Of a stretch of 64,000 bases of DNA, positions 5,294 through 62,746 are shown one piece after another (position 1 is the first letter of the stretch; every line of letters starts with the position of its first letter). Where the stretch lies: the NCBI RefSeq assembly GCF_013372265.1, contig NZ_CP054051.1, positions 1 to 64,000 on the forward strand, read 5' to 3'. Source of the stretch: Aliarcobacter cibarius. Lineage in GTDB: Bacteria > Campylobacterota > Campylobacteria > Campylobacterales > Arcobacteraceae. A program made the position numbers and the translations under genes. The notes under the pieces are model-generated. The model did not search any database, had not been told where the DNA came from, and was given only the letters and a program-made list of their open reading frames with translations.

Positions 5294-5890
5294 TTGGAAA
5301 GATTGGTTAGTACAGCTGAAGCAGCCGAAATTTTAGGCCTTTCTTTACAAGGTATACACTATCGTATAAAAAAAAATCAACTAAAATCAGTAAAACAAGA
5401 TGGAAAAGTTTTTGTATATATAACTGATGAAAAACCACAGTTTAATACAAATCAAATCACTCAAAATACAATTAATATACAAAGTAGTTTTGATAAAATT
5501 CTTGAATCAAAAGATGAACAAATTTCTCTATTAAAAAAGTCAATAAAATGGATGAGAAGACAATATATTTCTGAAATAGAAAGACTTGAAAAAAATCAAA
5601 AAAGAATAATCGAAGTTTTTAATAGTGAAATTAAACTTCTTCAAAGTGCATTTAATGAAATGAGAGCTATATATAAGCCACAAATTGAAGATAAAAAAGA
5701 ATGTGAAAAAAGTAGTGAATTTATTACAATAAAAGAATTTTTTGCTATTTTAAAAAGAGCTAATAAAAGTGAAATAGAGATAAAAAGTATTATTTTTAAT
5801 GCAATAAAAAAAGGTGATAAAAGATTTATTTATAATAAAATAGATAAAAAACTTTTGATTTTAAATGATAGTTTTGAGGATTTAATTTAA
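5294..5890 (+). CDS. HTH DNA-binding protein with coiled coil, unknown role
   Basis: Not assignable to a named gene. The 198-residue product starts with an excisionase/MerR-like helix-turn-helix (STAEAAEILGLSLQGIHYRI, about residues 5-24), followed by a lysine/glutamate-rich probable coiled coil (about 65-120) and a C-terminal charged domain. The start is TTG at 5294 with a weak GAGAG site; no better in-frame ATG precedes the HTH. It follows queF by 12 bp and may be the last gene of the gyrB-queF run. Binding of a short operator as a dimer is an inference from architecture only. Confidence 0.7.
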   Translation: MERLVSTAEAAEILGLSLQGIHYRIKKNQLKSVKQDGKVFVYITDEKPQFNTNQITQNTINIQSSFDKILESKDEQISLLKKSIKWMRRQYISEIERLEKNQKRIIEVFNSEIKLLQSAFNEMRAIYKPQIEDKKECEKSSEFITIKEFFAILKRANKSEIEIKSIIFNAIKKGDKRFIYNKIDKKLLILNDSFEDLI

Positions 5891-6101: not shown

Positions 6102-6509
6102 ATGTCATATTTAATACTTTTTATTTCAGCATTTGCTTCTGCAACTTTACTTCCACTTGGAAGTGAAGCATTACTAATTTACAATATTAAAGAAGGGTTA
6201 AATATTTATATTCTTTTATTTGTTGCAACTTTTGGAAATGTTTTAGGTTCAGTTTTTAACTATTATTTGGGATTAAAAGGAGAAGAGTATTTAATAGAAA
6301 AAAAACTTGTAAAACAAAAATATATAGATAGTTCAAAAAAATATTTTGATAAATTTGGTTCAATTTCTATTTTATTTGCATGGTTACCAATAATTGGTGA
6401 TCCAATTACTTTTATAGCAGGTGTTTTGAAATACAATTTTAGAAAATTTCTTATTTTAGTTATCATTTCAAAATTTTCAAGATATTTTTTTATAGTTTTA
6501 ATAATTTAA
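6102..6509 (+). CDS. YqaA-like small membrane protein (DedA/SNARE-associated superfamily)
   Basis: The 135-residue protein has three to four hydrophobic segments and the family pattern: an N-terminal helix with ATLLPLGSEALL, a glycine/asparagine-rich helix (FGNVLGSVFNYYLG), an amphipathic stretch with FDKFGSISILFAWLPIIGDP, and a last membrane helix. This matches the YqaA subgroup of DedA-like proteins, thought to act in membrane homeostasis or lipid handling; a specific substrate is not known. The ATG is preceded by a weak GAGAG site. It is convergent with the minus-strand methyltransferase, ending 4 bp from it. Confidence 0.75.
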   Translation: MSYLILFISAFASATLLPLGSEALLIYNIKEGLNIYILLFVATFGNVLGSVFNYYLGLKGEEYLIEKKLVKQKYIDSSKKYFDKFGSISILFAWLPIIGDPITFIAGVLKYNFRKFLILVIISKFSRYFFIVLII

Positions 6510-6513
6510 ATTT

Positions 6514-7320
6514 CTATTTTTCAATATCCCAAGATATAAATGCCCAAGTTAAATATTCATTTTTTTCTTTAAATCTATAAGTTGAATTAAAATATTCTCT
6601 TAGATTCTTTTCTTCTTTTTTTGATATTTTCTCTAAACTCCATTTTAATCTTTGAATAAAATCATCTTCATTTAAAGTTTTAAATCTTTTATTATTTGTT
6701 TTTATAAAATCAACTTTTGCAAAAATTCCCATACTATGAAGAGTATTTAAAATGTAGATATAATCAGGTCGTGGAATAATATCTCTTTTAATTTGAGTTA
6801 ATATCTCTTTATCTATAAAACTACCACCAAGTTTTGTAGTTATATAAACTCTTTTATTTGCTTTTTCATTTAATTTTTTTAGAGCTTTTTTTATATTCTT
6901 AACTTCCATAGATCTACTAGCAACTACTATATCAGCTTTTGGAACATCTTCCCAATTATCATACCATGATTTATGAATGGTTACTAAATTTTCAATATTT
7001 TGTTCTTTTGCGTTTTCTTTTGCTAGGTCTAACATATAACTTGAATAATCAAGAGCATAAACTACTTTTAACTTATTTGCTAATGCTAAGCTAATAGTTG
7101 CTGGTCCGCTTCCAATATCAAGTAAAGTTTCACAATCAATAATATCAATTTTTTCTATAAAATCTTTTGTATATGAACTAGTTTTTATATTTTGATTAAA
7201 CTCTTTTGCTTTTTTATCCCAATCGGTACTACTTTTGCTTTTAAAAGTAGATTTTTTCATCTGTTGTTTATATAGCTTTGAAAAATCTAGTTTATCCAAG
7301 TTTGTTTTTATTAGAGGCAT
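6514..7320 (-). CDS. Class I SAM-dependent methyltransferase, substrate unknown
   Basis: The 268-residue protein has motif I LLDIGSGPATISLALA, followed by an acidic ALDYSSYML and a motif IV-like KADIVVASRSMEV, giving a Rossmann-fold methyltransferase. A lysine-rich N-terminus precedes the domain. It is the last gene of the molybdate cluster on the minus strand, starting 10 bp after modC, so it may be co-transcribed with molybdate uptake. Whether it methylates a pterin, protein or other molecule cannot be told from the sequence. Confidence 0.8.
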   Translation of the reverse strand: MPLIKTNLDKLDFSKLYKQQMKKSTFKSKSSTDWDKKAKEFNQNIKTSSYTKDFIEKIDIIDCETLLDIGSGPATISLALANKLKVVYALDYSSYMLDLAKENAKEQNIENLVTIHKSWYDNWEDVPKADIVVASRSMEVKNIKKALKKLNEKANKRVYITTKLGGSFIDKEILTQIKRDIIPRPDYIYILNTLHSMGIFAKVDFIKTNNKRFKTLNEDDFIQRLKWSLEKISKKEEKNLREYFNSTYRFKEKNEYLTWAFISWDIEK

Positions 7321-55770: not shown

Positions 55771-56904
55771 TTACTACACCGATAAATTAAACTAATATTA
55801 TGGATATTGTTGGTACAATTTCTAATGGAAAAATTAGATAAAAATGATGCAAGAAAAGTAGATTCAAAAACATTGCAATATCTTCGGGATAGAGCAATAA
55901 AATTAAGAGAGAGTGGTGTTAGTAATATTGAGACAGCTAGTATTTTAGGTTTATCAAAAATTACAACTTCAAGATGGTATAGTAAATACAAAAAAGATGG
56001 ACAAAAAGCTCTTAAAGTTCAAAAGACAGGTAGACCAAAAAAGAGTGGTAAACGCCTTAGTGATGAACAAGAATCAAGAATTATTAGTATGCTAATAGAT
56101 ACAACACCAGAACAGCTAAAATTTAAATTTGCCCTATGGACAAGGGAAGCAGTAAAACAATTGATTTTGAGAGAACTTGATGTTGATATGCCAATATCAA
56201 CTGTTGGAGATTATTTAGCTAAATGGCAATTTACATCTAAAAAGCCAATAAAAAGAGCTTATGAGAGAAAAGATAGTGCTACAAAAGCTTGGCTTGAAAT
56301 AGAGTACCCAAAGATAAAAAAAGAAGCAAAAATAAATAATGCTGATGTTTGGTGGGCAGATGAAACAGCTTGTGTTTCATTGCCAAGTAATCTAAAAGGA
56401 TATGCACCAATAGGAAGTAAAATAAAACCAATATTAACTCATACAGCTAAAAAGTTTAAAGTTAATATGATAAGTGCTATTACTAATACAGGTAAATCAA
56501 TGTTTGCACTTTATGATGATTCAATAGCTACTGATAATTTTATAGATTTTTTAGAAAAAGTAATAAAGTCAAATGATAAAAAAGTATTTATGATAGTAGA
56601 TAACCTAAGAGTACATCATGCTAAAAAAGTAAAAGAGTGGGAAGAAGAGAATAAAGATAAAATAAAACTATTTTATCTACCACCATACTCTCCTGAATTT
56701 AACCCAGATGAATATTTAAATCAAGATTATAAAAGTAATGTACATAAAAATGGTCTGCCAAAGAATCAAAAAGAATTGAAAGAAAACACACAAAATTATA
56801 TGGAGAGTTTACAAAGAAATCCACAAAAAGTTGCAAATTTCTTTTTACATCCTAGTGTGAAATATGCTAGTTGATAAAATTAACTCTGTTTATTGGGGGA
56901 GTAA
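55771..56904 (+). mobile_element. IS630-family insertion sequence, apparently complete
   Basis: A 1134-bp element with imperfect terminal inverted repeats (TTACTACACCGATAAA left; TTTATTGGGGGAGTAA right), flanked by the TA dinucleotide that this family duplicates (55769-55770 and 56905-56906). It carries one transposase gene and lies in the VF530 gene. Confidence 0.88.
55825..56874 (+). CDS. IS630-family transposase
   Basis: DDE transposase of about 349 residues. The N-terminal HTH is [20 protein letters not shown], followed by a second winged region. Catalytic residues appear as [11 protein letters not shown] (D), [14 protein letters not shown] (D) and [19 protein letters not shown] (E). I place the start at the ATG at 55825 (MEKLDKND); the frame is open to a TTG at 55807. 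It appears intact and uninterrupted. Confidence 0.9.
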
Positions 56905-57041
56905 TAATATTAGATGTTTTAATTTTGATCCATCTATAAGTTCAAGTCTTAAATTTTTAAGAAAAACTTCTTGGGCTAGAGAAAAAGTAGAAAAACTATA
57001 TTTAAATACATTTTCTAATTAAATAAATTATAGGAATATAT

Positions 57042-57063
57042 ATGATAAAAAAAATTGATGTTA
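57042..57063 (+). pseudogene. Start of an unknown gene cut by the second IS630 copy
   Basis: AGGAATATATATG precedes MIKKIDVI, which runs straight into the IS630 terminal repeat after a TA. Only seven or eight codons remain; the rest of the gene is not found on the far side. Function unknown. Confidence 0.4.
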
Positions 57064-57442
57064 TTACTCCCCCAATAAAATACATAAATAATTAGCCAGC
57101 ATATTTCACACTAGGATGTAAAAAGAAATTTGCAACTTTTTGTGGATTTTTTTGTAAACTCTCCATATAATTTTGCGTATTTTCTTTTAACTCTTTTTGA
57201 TTCTTTGGCAGACTATTTTTATGTACATTACTTTTATAATCTTGATTTAAATATTCATCTGGGTTAAATTCAGGAGAGTATGGTGGTAGATAAAATAGTT
57301 TTATTTTATCTTTATTCTCTTCTTCCCACTCTTTTACTTTTTTAGCATGATGTACTCTTAGGTTATCTACTATCATAAATACTTTTTTATCATTTGACTT
57401 TATTACTTTTTCTAAAAAATCTATAAAATTATCAGTAGCTAT
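57064..57442 (-). mobile_element. Truncated IS630-family copy (right end only)
   Basis: A 379-bp remnant, opposite in orientation to the complete copy. It keeps the terminal repeat TTACTCCCCCAATAAA and the C-terminal third of the transposase, from the ATAGCTACTGAT homology to the stop codon near 57090. Only a few residues differ from the complete copy (for example NSLPKN against NGLPKN), so the two are recent relatives. The ORF at 57092-57376 is its 94-residue tail, including the catalytic D and E. Confidence 0.85.
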
Positions 57443-57591
57443 GACAAGTTCAATTAAAAGTGATACAATTAACTACTATAAAAAGGTTATTAATGAAAAA
57501 TAGTTCAATTAAAGATACTACAGAATATAGAATAAGAATGTATAATATAAATTATTTTTAAATAAAAATGCTACAAAATTTAAGGTAAAAA
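57443..57591 (+). mobile_element. Short remnant, possible end of another insertion element
   Basis: The IS630 remnant stops exactly at TGACAAGTTCAATTAAAAG, which looks like a terminal repeat. A 22-codon ORF (57494-57562, MKNSSIKDTTEYRIRMYN) follows and then stops. Family not identified; the rest of the gap is AT-rich and leads to the TnsA-like gene. Confidence 0.3.
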
Positions 57592-58101
57592 ATGAAGATA
57601 AGTCATAAGAATCGTAAAATTGGATATACATATGGAAGTACCTCTGGAAAGTTTATGTTTAGAAATAAAAAGATTATTCTTTTTGAATCATTACTAGAAA
57701 AAAGTTTTTTACAAGTTTTAGAATTTAATGATATGGTTTTAGACGTTGTAGAACAACCTTTTACTATTGAAACTCAAACAACAAAGGGGAATAAGGGTTC
57801 TTATACTCCTGATTTTTTAATTTATTTTAAAGAGCCAGAGTTAAGAACTACTAATCCAATAAAACCTATTGTTGCAGAAGTTAAACCTTCTAAAAAATTA
57901 ATTCAAAATAGAATTGAACTTAAACAGAAATTTAAATCAGCAATAAAATTTTGTAATGAACAAGAATTTAGATTTAAAATTTTTAATGAAAATAGAATTA
58001 GAAGTACTGAAGTTGATAACATTGTTTTTTTAAATAGATATAAAGACTATAAACCAGATCAATCTAAAATAGCATCAGCAACTGTGTCATTATTTAAATA
58101 G
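57592..58101 (+). CDS. TnsA-like transposon endonuclease, 3' end replaced
   Basis: The 169-residue product has the TnsA N-terminal nuclease core: FESLLEKSFLQVLEFNDMV (Glu), KGSYTPDFLIYF (Asp) and IVAEVKPSKK (E-V-K), the residues of a restriction-like fold. In Tn7 relatives TnsA cuts the 5' transposon ends with TnsB. No tnsB or tnsC follows. The last 13 or so codons (QSKIASATVSLFK) are antisense to an istB remnant, so the true gene has lost its C-terminus. RBS AAGG is well placed. Confidence 0.75.
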   Translation: MKISHKNRKIGYTYGSTSGKFMFRNKKIILFESLLEKSFLQVLEFNDMVLDVVEQPFTIETQTTKGNKGSYTPDFLIYFKEPELRTTNPIKPIVAEVKPSKKLIQNRIELKQKFKSAIKFCNEQEFRFKIFNENRIRSTEVDNIVFLNRYKDYKPDQSKIASATVSLFK

Positions 58102-58247
58102 TTATACCAACTTGAAACAGGTAATTGAGAAGTAATTATTGTGGAATTTATCTCTGTTCTATCTTCAATTATTTCAAATAAATTTGTTGCATCATCAGTT
58201 GTAATAGTTGAAGTTCCAAAGTCATCTAAAATTAGTAATTCAAATCT
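58060..58247 (-). pseudogene. istB remnant (IS21-family helper ATPase)
   Basis: On the minus strand, about 62 codons read RFELLILDDFGTSTITTDD, then NSTIITSQLPVSSWYNYLNN and DTVADAILD. This is the Walker B to C-terminal part of IstB. The N-terminal Walker A part is missing, and there is a frameshift at the left boundary. It overlaps the end of the TnsA-like frame. Confidence 0.75.
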
Positions 58248-58302
58248 TTATATATTCAAAGATTTTTTCACTTGCTTGTTTCAAATTGAATCTTTTTTGG
58301 AT

Positions 58303-58446
58303 TTAAATTATATTTTTATTTTGCAAATAAAAATATAATTTAAATGTATCGCTATAAGCTTTGATTGTATTATTACTAGCACCAACTGTTAAAGAAAGGT
58401 ATGTGTTGAGATATTTTGATAAAAAGTATAAAAAACTATTTTTCAT
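58303..58446 (-). pseudogene. Tyrosine-recombinase N-terminal fragment
   Basis: A 47-codon reading frame, MKNSFLYFLSKYLNTYLSL followed by TVGASNNTIKAYSDTFKLYF, matches the core-binding domain of XerC/D-like and transposon-type integrases. The catalytic domain is gone. It lies just upstream of the istB remnant on the same strand. Confidence 0.6.
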
Positions 58447-59384
58447 AATCTATATCCACATAAATATAAAAACTTACAGAGTAAGAAGAGATAAATTTTA
58501 ATAAATATCTCTTTGGTTTAGAGATAAACTTTTTTATAGAACTAAAAATAAAATTAGTATATTTTCTTGTAAAGAGAAAATGAATATTTTTATAAAATCA
58601 TTATAACAAAAGATACTTCTTTGATACAAATTTTCAATCGAAATATAAAAACTTACAGAATAAAAAGATATATATTTTAATAAATATCTCTTCATTATTA
58701 AGCCAATTTTTTACTCAAAACTAGAGATAGAATTTATAAAAATTAGTAAATATTTTACATAAAAATTCAAAAGAAGATATACATTTTTGATGTAAATTTT
58801 CAATCAAAATATAAAAAATTACAAAGCAAAAAGAGATAAATAAATTCAAAAATCAGTTAAGTATTTCAATATTTTTTGTAAAAAAAGATATAAATTTTAA
58901 TAAATATTTCTTCATTATTGAACCAATTTTTTACACAAAATTTACATATTTTTTAATTGCATTTTAGTCAAATTCTGTATAAAAAATGAGGTAAAAATTT
59001 CTAATATCTTGTTGTAAAAAAATCACTATTTTTAAAAACTTATGTTTTGCTGAATAAGTTATTTTATTATTAAATAAGGGGGTTTTTCAAAAATCAATTT
59101 TAAGTTTAATTTAAGAATTAAATTATTAGCAAATATATGTATTTTTTACTTTAAAATAATATTTATTTTATTGATTTTTTAACTAAAGATAAAAAATAAA
59201 AAAAGTGTAAAAAACTTAACAAAATCAAAAAACCTCCGTCCTAAATATTAAATTTTAATTTTTGAAAAGAATATTTAGAGAAAAAATATTAAAAAAATAA
59301 ATATAAAAACATACTTTTGTAGTATAAAAATAATCAAAATATATAGCTTTAAAGATTTGATTTTTTTAGATTTTTTTGAGAATT
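58447..59384. repeat. AT-rich region with degenerate direct repeats
   Basis: No gene in about 900 bp. A segment of about 55-75 bp with AATATAAAAACTTACAGA and TTTTAATAAATATCTCTT recurs at about 58461, 58641 and, less well, 58801 and 58879; ACCAATTTTTTACACAAAA-like ends recur at 58703 and 58921. Copies are diverged and not evenly spaced. It may be old mobile-element ends or a decayed gene. Confidence 0.45.
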
Positions 59385-59417
59385 AATACAACACCCCAGT
59401 CGGGTGGAGTATTTTTT
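59385..59417 (+). terminator. Orphan Rho-independent terminator
   Basis: AATAC-aa-CACCC-cagtc-GGGTG-ga-GTATT followed by TTTT is a terminator-like hairpin in the plus direction. No gene ends before it; it may belong to a lost gene or a short RNA starting near the TATAAA at about 59320. Confidence 0.6.
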
Positions 59418-59435
59418 AGAAATAATTATAAATAT

Positions 59436-59650
59436 TATTTATTTAGTTATTTTTTTATGCTCTTCGATTTCTTTTTCCATGTTTTTTACTATGGCTAAAA
59501 CATCATCATCAAACAAACTTGAAGGGTCAGAAACAGTATTAATATTGAACTCAATATCATTAAGAATTTTTACTTTTCTTCCGTATAAAAATGCGTTCCA
59601 AGTGAACAAAAATAAATTCACTAAACCATCACCTTTGAATGAAGTTGAGT
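59436..59650 (-). pseudogene. C-terminal fragment of an unknown protein
   Basis: A minus-strand frame of about 70 codons, ending SDPSSLFDDDVLAIVKNMEK and EIEEHKKITK, looks like a genuine acidic/coiled-coil C-terminus. Its N-terminal side is cut by the istA fragment at about 59650. The family is not recognised. Confidence 0.4.
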
Positions 59651-60167
59651 AGAGAAATTATTTATAGACTTCAGTGGTATGACTATGAATGTTTTAGATA
59701 AAGACAGTGGTGAAATAAGTAAAGTTCAGATATTCGTTGCTGTATTAGGAGCTTCTGATTATCCATTTGTAAAAGCAATTGCAACTCAAAGTAAAAAAGA
59801 TTTTATAAATGTACATGTTGATATGTTTAAATACTTTGGTGGTGTTCCAAATATATTAGTACCTGATAATTTAAAAAGTGCTGTAAGTAAAGCTTGTAAC
59901 TTTGATCCAGATATAAATCCTGATTATTTAGCAATGGCTAGACACTATAACACAGTAATAATTCCAGCAAGAGTTGCTAAACCAAAAGATAAAGCTAAAG
60001 TTGAAAATGGTGTAAAAATAGTTCAAAGATGGATATTAGCAAGATTAAGAAATCATATCTTTTTTAATATTGAAGCTTTAAATCTAGCAATTGAAAAATT
60101 GATTCCAATTTATGTAAATAAAAAGATGAAAAGGCTTGATAAAAGTAGACTAGAACTATTTGTATAA
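59650..60167 (+). pseudogene. istA fragment (IS21-family transposase)
   Basis: An internal piece of the IstA DDE domain, from LFIDFSGMTMNVLDKDSGE through VQIFVAVLGASDYPF, GGVPNILVPDNLKSAVSKAC (D) and KPKDKAKVENGVKIVQRWIL (E), to a premature stop after RLELFV. The N-terminal HTH and the C-terminal part are missing. It is separated from the istB remnant by 1.4 kb and is in the opposite orientation, so the element has been broken and rearranged. Confidence 0.87.
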
Positions 60168-60358
60168 TAGAGGTGAAAAAAAGATAAACAAAATATAATA
60201 AAATTAATATTATTTTAATGCTTTATAGTTTGTATAAAATTCTTTCAATTTAGTTCAACCTAACATTTCAATTCAGTTTAATTTAAATGTAACTAACATA
60301 TAATTATTTTGATAGTTTAAATATAACAATATTTGAATTTATCGTTTTTATCTTAGAG

Positions 60359-60364
60359 TATAAT
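60359..60364 (+). promoter_or_regulatory. -10 box of the structured RNA
   Basis: TATAAT at 60359-60364 predicts a start near 60371-60375, where the GC-richer structured segment begins. No clear -35 is seen, which is normal for this lineage. Confidence 0.6.
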
Positions 60365-60371
60365 TCTTATA

Positions 60372-60487
60372 TTTGGGGATGGAAACATCTTGCTTAGGCG
60401 TGAAGTGGGGTTACGACCAGTACCTGAAAAGGTTAGTCCTAGATGACTTTTAACTGCTATCGTCTCACTTCCATTATCAGTTTTTTC
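60372..60487 (+). ncRNA. Structured RNA of unknown class
   Basis: A GC-richer segment of about 115 nt in very AT-rich DNA, with a -10 box before it and six Ts (60481-60486) at the end. Predicted helices are GATG-GAAA-CATC (60378-60389), then nested GAAGTG/CACTTC (60402-60407 with 60466-60471), ACGA/TCGT (60413-60416 with 60460-60463) and CAGT/ACTG (60418-60421 with 60453-60456) enclosing two hairpins, ACC/GGT and AGTC/GACT. I do not recognise the class; tRNA, SRP, 6S and tmRNA patterns do not fit. Confidence 0.55.
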
Positions 60488-60941
60488 TATAACTTGTCAC
60501 TACCAGTTTATTTTTATAGATTTCATTAGTTACTAGTATCAATTCTTTTTGGTTTTTTAACATTTTGTATGTGGAAAGTTCATTGTTTGATACACCGACT
60601 TCATTTAATTTCAAAGCATTTTTAAATAGTATAGGTAAATTTAAAATATCCATAGTTTGTAAGTCATTTGGATTATAATGTTTTTGAAGGATGTGTCTAA
60701 AACCTTTGTTATCATCACCCATTCTGAGTAATATAATCTTGTCATTCACTTTAAATTCTACTTTATCAACTTTACCATTAATAAATTCTATCATATCTTG
60801 TTGATATTTTTTGAATTTAGTATTTTTTTTTGATTCAATAATTTTTATTTCTTTTTTTATCTTAGCAAGATTCTCAGAATATATACTCAATTTATTTTTC
60901 CAATGTAATAAGTTCAAATTAAATTTTGAGAAGTATATCAA
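60477..60941 (-). CDS. Nuclease-like domain ORF (PBECR/MuF-C-type), probably truncated
   Basis: The 154-codon frame starts only at TTG (60941) with no ribosome-binding site, and continues open to the stop of the upstream ATPase gene, so its N-terminus is doubtful. The lysine-rich first part is followed by KIILLRMGDDNKGFRHILQK, similar to the GxxHIxxKH pattern of barnase/EndoU/ColicinE5-like nuclease domains found at toxin and phage-protein C-termini. The assignment is by pattern only. It is convergent with the structured RNA, which overlaps its last codons. Confidence 0.4.
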   Translation of the reverse strand: MIYFSKFNLNLLHWKNKLSIYSENLAKIKKEIKIIESKKNTKFKKYQQDMIEFINGKVDKVEFKVNDKIILLRMGDDNKGFRHILQKHYNPNDLQTMDILNLPILFKNALKLNEVGVSNNELSTYKMLKNQKELILVTNEIYKNKLVVTSYRKN

Positions 60942-61019
60942 AAAAAATTTTATTGATTTGCAAAATTTAAATTTATAACTATTTTGGTCTAATACGAATA
61001 TTATGAATATTTTTTTATA

Positions 61020-62225
61020 TTACAAAAACATCCCAAAAGGTATAGCTATTAAATCATCACTAAATTCAACTACCATATCACCATTATAAAAGACTACACC
61101 TAAACACTTTTTTTCATCATATCTACTTTGTAAATCTATAATATGTTTAAAATCTTCTTTTTTTACACTGCTGCTTTGTTTTATTTCTATAGCTAAAAGT
61201 TCATTATCTACTTCTATTATAAAATCTATTTCTTTTTTATCATTTGTTCTATAATGAAATATTTGTGCTTGTTTTTGTAAATAAGATAGATGTTTGTTTA
61301 GTTCACAAAATATATATGTTTCAAAAATTTGTCCACTATATGTTGAATTTAAAAGTTGTTCTTTTGAATTTATTTTCAGTAAATTACATAGTACCCCTGT
61401 GTCATTAAAAAATACTTTTGGTGACTTTACGAACTGCTTTCCTATATTTATAAAATATGGTTTTAAAAGTGTCACTTGGTAGATTCGGCTTATGATAGAA
61501 AGATAATTTTCTGTTGTTATATCTTTTATACCTATATCATTGCTTAGGCTTGATTTATTTAAAATTGTACCACTTCTAGTCGATAAAATATTTACAAATT
61601 TAATGAAACTATCTATATCTCTTATATCAGCTAAATCTCTAGCATCTCTTTCTATATAAGTTGCAATGTATGAAGTAAACCATAAATCTTTTGATAAACC
61701 ACTAAGTTCTAAAATCTCAGGATAACCACCATCTAAAATATGATTACACACTTCATCAGTATAATCTTTTTTGACTAATTTGAAATCTCTATTTAGTAGT
61801 TTTTCTATGATATTTTCATTTGGTTTATCATTTTTTTCTTTTGAACTAAGAGGATGAAGTCGCAGTTCGCAAAGTCTTCCAGCTAAAGTATCTTTACTAT
61901 CTTTATGATCAAGAACATTTGAGCTTCCTGTAAGTAAAAAATCTCCATTAACTCTATTTGAATCAATGTGCATCTTTATATATTCTAAAAGAGATGGAAC
62001 TTTTTGTATCTCATCAAGACAAATAGGAAACTCGATATTTTTAAGAAAACCTTTTGGATTTTCTTTTGCATAAAGTCGAAGTTCTCCATCATCAAATGTA
62101 AGATAATTTTCAAAATTTTCAAGTGCAAGAGTTGATTTACCAACTTGTCTAGCACCATTTAAAAGTACAACAGGAAATGTATCTAGTGCTATTTTGAGTA
62201 TTGATTCTAGTGTTCTTTTTTTCAT
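61020..62225 (-). CDS. ATP-binding protein of the AAA/DUF4143 family
   Basis: A 401-residue protein with Walker A LLNGARQVGKSTLAL, Walker B ICLDEIQKVPSL, sensor FLLTGSSNVLDH, and a C-terminal DUF4143 domain with a nuclease-like ending: FHYRTNDKKEIDFIIEVDNE and LLAIEIKQSS (E-x-K). Members are common in genomes with mobile elements, and their function is mostly unknown. It looks intact, unlike its neighbours, with an ordinary ATG. Confidence 0.85.
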   Translation of the reverse strand: MKKRTLESILKIALDTFPVVLLNGARQVGKSTLALENFENYLTFDDGELRLYAKENPKGFLKNIEFPICLDEIQKVPSLLEYIKMHIDSNRVNGDFLLTGSSNVLDHKDSKDTLAGRLCELRLHPLSSKEKNDKPNENIIEKLLNRDFKLVKKDYTDEVCNHILDGGYPEILELSGLSKDLWFTSYIATYIERDARDLADIRDIDSFIKFVNILSTRSGTILNKSSLSNDIGIKDITTENYLSIISRIYQVTLLKPYFINIGKQFVKSPKVFFNDTGVLCNLLKINSKEQLLNSTYSGQIFETYIFCELNKHLSYLQKQAQIFHYRTNDKKEIDFIIEVDNELLAIEIKQSSSVKKEDFKHIIDLQSRYDEKKCLGVVFYNGDMVVEFSDDLIAIPFGMFL

Positions 62226-62297
62226 TTTATCTCTTTAATGGTATATTTTTTACCATTATACTATATAAATTTATAATAAAAACTTGAGTAATAGTTA

Positions 62298-62746
62298 AAC
62301 CCGGATTATGCAATAGTAGAATTTCAATTTAATCAAACATACAATAAAATCTAAGTTCAAACATTATTTCAAAGGATCACCAAATGGGTGAACTAAAAAT
62401 AGAATATTCAGATAAAAAGTTACATTATGATGGCATATAACATTATGGCACTATTCAAACACGAAGTGCTCAATTCAAATATGATGCTTTCTACCTTAAG
62501 ATCCTACTGCTTTGCATTAGGATCTTGGATTACAGAACATGCTAATATAAAGACACTAAAAATATCACTTCCTCAAAAAAGACGAGCTTGGATGGATGGT
62601 TTGTTTGAAAATGTGAAACAATCACAACTGCCATTCAAATATACCTGACAATTTTGAACTAAATTACACTCAAAGAAGCTAAAAAATTACAATCTATAGT
62701 TGTAAAATAATCAGCTATGCACTTTTTCTATTGCATAATCCGGGTT
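62298..62746 (+). mobile_element. Internally deleted IS1380-type element with perfect 19-bp ends
   Basis: AACCCGGATTATGCAATAG (62298-62316) and its exact reverse complement (62728-62746) bound a 449-bp element. Inside, ATG at 62384 starts MGELKIEYSDKKLHYDGI and stops; a frame at 62427-62648 carries the transposase C-terminus (MMAYNIMALFKHEVLNSNM, then SLPQKRRAWMDGLFEN). The middle of the gene is gone. The element looks like a MITE-like, non-autonomous derivative that a full copy could still move. Confidence 0.8.

Follow-up and report, generated by a model that had tools for sequence, protein, structure and literature searches.

A structured RNA encoded on the plus strand and a convergent, toxin-like gene on the minus strand adjoin each other in the window (the whole 64,000-nucleotide stretch of Aliarcobacter cibarius DNA that was analysed), and comparison with related loci suggests that they probably constitute a toxin-antitoxin pair in which the RNA directly inhibits a BECR-fold RNase. 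The RNA retains its fold across genera, and is present in Arcobacter-like bacteria as well as in their phages. In the earlier note on this DNA, the RNA was described without the convergent ORF, which is the source of its most likely meaning. Three guesses were made there as to its nature, among which an RNA antitoxin is supported, while a decayed regulatory RNA is not, given the conservation of the fold and a copy with 100% identity on the A. cibarius plasmid pACIB. The shared identical stretch amounts to 261 bp, and the pACIB match at 99.4% identity spans 2.66 kb (window 59644–62299).

The structured RNA and its transcription

The RNA core has a GC content of 44% (60400–60471) compared with about 23% in the surroundings, which agrees with the GC-richer stretch reported earlier. 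Its predicted fold is much as had been drawn: within an outer stem lies an inner stem that carries two hairpins, one of them GAAA-capped. The GAUG-GAAA-CAUC hairpin can form (Table 1). The earlier note had proposed an unassigned structured RNA on the plus strand, to be checked against Rfam and for covariation; both checks were run, and the proposal is borne out by covariation, by G-U asymmetry and by the lack of an Rfam match. No Rfam 15 family exceeded its gathering threshold for the RNA, and relaxed E-values returned chance-level matches only. A CRISPR repeat was rejected (CRISPR-DR2 at E 0.37, under threshold), as was tRNA or tmRNA identity, neither being detected within the RNA. There are no tandem repeats in the RNA gene.

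Table 1. Features of the RNA–nuclease locus and its surroundings in the window.
Feature	Position	Strand	Basis or remark
Structured RNA gene	60344..60473	+	Minimal extent by conservation: alignments, pair counts, model matches, G-U versus A-C asymmetry
RNA core	60400..60473	+	Pair counts, model R1
P0, long 5' hairpin	60344..60386 (arms 60344-60363, 60367-60386)	+	Conservation upstream of the earlier 5' limit; alignments
P1, GAUG-GAAA-CAUC hairpin	60378..60389	+	100% paired, compensatory changes
P2	60402-60409/60464-60471	+	Pair counts, model R1
P3	60414-60416/60460-60462	+	Pair counts, model R1
P4	60418-60421/60453-60456	+	Pair counts, model R1
Hairpin 1, ACCU-GAAA-AGGU (variant I RNAs)	60422..60433	+	Compensatory changes at two pairs
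Hairpin 2, AGUC-CUAGAU-GACU	60435..60448	+	Strongly conserved loop
Putative BECR-fold RNase toxin, ~137 aa	60477..60890	-	TTG start, selected by comparing relatives
Candidate promoter TTTAAT-16-TATAAT, weak, 9/12	60277..60304	+	Best match in window; spacing as in L023
TATAAT, previously taken as promoter	60359..60364	+	Inside P0
TTTTTT, previously taken as terminator	60482..60487	+	Complementary to last codons of toxin ORF
DDE_3 transposase ORF	55807-56874		
Partial inverted copy of DDE_3 transposase ORF	57092-57376		
TnsA-like nuclease ORF	57592-58101		
rve-domain fragment	59679-60167		

The compared set consists of 18 distinct loci from Campylobacterota genomes and phages, the window included. 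Variant I comprises the window, L023, L024, L034 (near-identical L033), L035 and L041; variant II, with the core AGCGTTTAGTAAGCCC or one close to it, comprises L028, L029, L036, L037, L038, L039, L043, L059 and L062; variant III, with few sequences behind it, comprises L042, L045 and L046. A DNA search of 104 family genomes found true relatives in two (G009 and G051) only, most other matches across the family being AT-rich noise. Further loci in genomes and phage contigs were obtained with a covariance model built from three sequences (R1), a second model (R2) and patterns, and the RNAs of L045 and L046, matched by neither model, were spotted by eye. Two candidates were set aside as chance: a viral pattern match without a model match (L032), and an R1 match inside a large protein gene of G358 (E 0.047). 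Nothing was found for two further viral patterns, and the contigs recovered when viral contigs were scanned a second time at the protein level all belonged to the known set.

The folding energy of 60372–60487 alone is unremarkable (z -0.39); for the extended RNA, z is -2.2 in the window, -3.6 in L034, -4.6 in L038 and -6.3 in L041. At the level of sequence comparison, the decisive evidence for a structured RNA is pairing, not folding energy. Compensatory changes were already visible among the first three sequences. In variant I, 98.5% of cells are paired, as opposed to 26–48% with the partners slid, and both-side changes occur in hairpin 1, hairpin 2 and P2. The corresponding value for variant II is 96.6%, with both-side changes at 10 pairs, and in ten extended sequences the value is 94.7% when P0 is taken in full, or 95.9% when P1 and the upper part of P0 are taken instead. 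Both-side changes are more numerous than in all, or nearly all, shuffles and far more numerous than in any slid control, although the slid controls are somewhat flattering because the structures were drawn from the same sequences; the pair tests covered nested helices only. In P2 and P3 there are 12 G-U pairs and A-C pairs are absent, so that the plus strand is the RNA. As for P0, the ratio of 34 G-U to 9 A-C (20 pairs, 10 sequences) disfavours a DNA operator palindrome. The window, L023 and L024 have a GNRA tetraloop on hairpin 1; L034 does not. Some bases of P1 also belong to the lower half of P0, so that the two cannot both be fully formed, and with both helices covarying they might act as a conformational switch.

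Since the conserved P0 lies upstream of the limits given previously (60372–60487), these are replaced by the minimal extent in Table 1, and the gene may start further upstream, near 60311. A TTGACA-(16 to 18)-TATAAT promoter with at least 11 of 12 matching positions lies within the 160 nt searched upstream in 10 of the 18 loci, and is perfect in six; dinucleotide shuffles predict 0.19 and 0.007 loci, respectively. The same search of the opposite strand in the 18 loci gave no match of at least 11 of 12. The weak candidate in the window is placed 95 nt from the core, compared with 94 nt for the perfect TTGACA-17-TATAAT of L023. The TATAAT previously regarded as the promoter is probably not a -10 box, since it lies inside P0, which is transcribed in relatives. 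In L043 and L039, P0 is seemingly absent and TATAAT is found just before P1, and start sites may therefore vary among members. The TTTTTT assigned as terminator belongs to the toxin coding sequence and begins 10 nt past the closing stem; no terminator-like site was found.

The convergent nuclease-like gene and its linkage to the RNA

At its 3' end, the RNA core is separated by 3 nt from the stop codon of the toxin ORF. Searching viral and genome contigs, as well as 397 Campylobacterota genomes, with profiles of the protein family identified relatives both as stand-alone genes and as C-terminal domains of large proteins. Against the PDB, the family profile matches a CdiA toxin (7m5f, E 7.6e-5). 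Among 22 members compared with Pfam, PBECR1 is weakly matched in four (best E 0.0021) and PBECR3 weakly in two, the window protein falling below cut-off; DUF3519 matches occur in large proteins, and no member matches the ToxN family. The window toxin could not be named from PHROGs, NCBIfam or PADLOC. The 12 stand-alone members share an invariant His and, in the C-terminal part, a VV(T/S) motif, a pattern that fits the PBECR active site, which combines a His in the N-terminal helix with a Thr or Ser in the last strand (PMC5512222). From the remote homology and the conserved His and Ser/Thr, we infer that the protein is a BECR-fold endoribonuclease. Two variant II loci have small helix-turn-helix-like ORFs directly upstream of the toxin on the same strand (L036 3662–3940 and L038 1437–1646), which are possible regulators. 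In the large fusion proteins (L047–L052, L057) the nuclease-like domain occurs without an RNA detectable by these models, and in several such copies the last-strand Thr/Ser is replaced, e.g., KIFDFY; these may be inactive or differ.

Each of the 12 distinct, intact stand-alone protein genes has the RNA tail-to-tail with it, recognised by eye in the case of L045 and L046, and the RNA core ends 1–4 nt from the stop codon in 10 of the 12. This spacing is tight, though needless for a trans-acting antitoxin. In L045 and L046 the variant III RNA overlaps the ORF end, with a perfect promoter ahead of each. The distances among the RNAs are correlated with those among the proteins (Mantel r 0.83, p 5e-5), which points to a travelling unit and not to binding, because any two linked genes would correlate.

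Six of the 18 RNAs adjoin a broken toxin or none. The frame of the toxin ORF is lost after about 105 residues in L039, and the last 62 residues are all that is left in L043; no toxin remnant was found in the sequence around the RNA in L023, L024, L059 and L062. RNAs thus exist without a nuclease, yet among the 12 intact stand-alone toxins none lacks an RNA, as a toxin-antitoxin pair predicts.

Two of the free-standing RNAs are close to other BECR genes, proximities that are suggestive but not proof. PBECR1 exceeds the cut-off once in the 104 family genomes, on the 4748-bp contig that also carries the L024 RNA (L024 41–295 and 3787–3858; G051 contig C8), a phage fragment with a P22-like portal. 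PBECR3 exceeds it in five of the 104, in one case about 0.4–0.5 kb from the L023 RNA, where the PBECR3-like gene (6193–6579, minus strand) is divergent from the RNA (6995–7064, plus strand). By eye, L023 also contains Cas1- and Cas2-like ORFs (3–1002), and an ORF (2618–2890) that reads as a repeated peptide and resembles a CRISPR array. No BECR gene was detected near the RNAs of L059 and L062. The former, a variant II RNA (5377–5448, plus strand) on the 83-kb large-phage contig 3300043420_001819 of IMG/VR, has no detected toxin gene, and could be a phage-borne counter-antitoxin.

As for the genomic settings, insertion-sequence remains occupy 55807–60167 of the window (Table 1). In the phage locus L035 (3195–4498), the cassette adjoins a TIR-domain gene (PADLOC PDC-S35, CAP12/Pycsar TIR) at a site flanked by portal and terminase genes, which is probably a spot for defence genes or morons.

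Proposed mechanism and alternative explanations

In the mechanism that we propose, the plus-strand gene would be transcribed from its own promoter into a structured non-coding RNA of roughly 130–165 nt, and the minus-strand gene would produce the BECR-fold endoribonuclease. Bound to the nuclease, the RNA would block it, and would probably do so by lying over the active site or the RNA-binding site. Should RNA synthesis stop, as upon phage takeover or loss of the element, a longer-lived nuclease would be freed to cut cellular RNA. Polymerase collision resulting from tail-to-tail transcription may add control. Toxicity, direct binding, neutralisation and the trigger are all steps that we infer.

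A fixed RNA–protein pairing fits any obligate ribonucleoprotein, and the RNA could instead be a cofactor or guide that the nuclease needs in order to act, with the mutually exclusive P0 and P1 pairings serving as a switch. We regard this as unlikely, since RNAs with a broken or absent protein are what is expected of an antitoxin, and the BECR RNases of known toxins are active without RNA. It is quite improbable that the RNA acts in the manner of a type I antitoxin by pairing with the toxin mRNA and blocking its translation. The genes are convergent with touching 3' ends, and if the RNA were longer it would overlap the toxin mRNA at its end, but such an overlap is at the mRNA 3' end, extended complementarity is absent, and the best duplex (-43.9) is no better than the mean with shuffled mRNA (-44.1); the conserved fold and loops would also be needless for such action. 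Copies that stand alone in phage contigs (L024, L059) would suit an RNA that belongs independently to a phage or mobile element and lies beside the toxin gene by accident, an explanation made very improbable by the near-constant distance at all 12 intact stand-alone genes in differing genomic settings, and by the correlated RNA and protein distances. Finally, cassette recombination sites are likewise imperfect inverted repeats directly 3' of an ORF, but that a DNA element (a recombination or attachment site, or an operator) has been mistaken for RNA is scarcely credible in view of G-U pairs in one sense only, strong promoters that read into the RNA, and conserved unpaired loops.

Comparison with known RNA antitoxins

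With the RNA as an antitoxin, the closest comparison is with the type III systems (ToxIN, CptIN, TenpIN; AbiQ), which share an RNA antitoxin that binds an endoribonuclease, as proposed here, and an association with phages and mobile DNA. In strict type III systems the antitoxin is encoded as tandem repeats (PMC5086642), in contrast to the single branched RNA without repeats described here. The strict definition also includes a pseudoknotted RNA. Furthermore, the type III RNA precedes the toxin gene within a single operon and is separated from it by a terminator, whereas the present RNA is convergent with its own promoter, and by Pfam the toxin is not of the ToxN/CptN/TenpN type but resembles BECR nucleases. 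Because the repeats, the upstream co-transcribed order and the toxin family all differ, we claim no type III membership.

Two other systems demonstrate that toxins of other kinds can also have an RNA antitoxin. In the AbiF/RCd22 system of a Clostridioides difficile prophage, the toxin is neutralised directly by a non-coding RNA that does not belong to classical type III (PMC12373285). The proposed pair is similar in setting such an RNA against a toxin protein, and in AbiF/RCd22 this is likewise prophage-borne, but AbiF belongs to the Abi_2 family, and RCd22 is located upstream of the toxin gene and has two abiF motifs. AvcID also pairs an RNA antitoxin, AvcI, with a toxin of a fold other than ToxN, although AvcD is a deoxycytidylate deaminase and not a nuclease (PMC10511110). 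The PBECR nucleases of phages and polyvalent proteins resemble the present protein through weak family matches, the His and Thr/Ser residues, the phage link and the existence of solo versions; the source describing them mentions no RNA antitoxin, and the window protein falls below the Pfam cut-offs (PMC5512222).

Within the open-licence literature, an RNA antitoxin was named together with BECR in a type II review only, and novelty is provisional because the search covered open-licence papers only. The known inhibitors of BECR RNases are, to our knowledge, proteins. We tentatively consider that the RNA may define a new class of RNA antitoxin, in which a branched RNA acts against BECR-fold RNases encoded tail-to-tail, and free copies provide RNA 'immunity', including against phage-delivered nucleases. 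A covariance model that works for an RNA family absent from Rfam is also gained. Very many toxins and phage effectors are BECR RNases (PMC5512222), and few toxin families are known to have RNA antitoxins that act on the protein; an RNA inhibitor of a BECR nuclease would, if true, widen the scope of RNA antitoxins. A nuclease of this kind would also gain a natural RNA ligand, and the free phage RNAs would be explained as possible protection.
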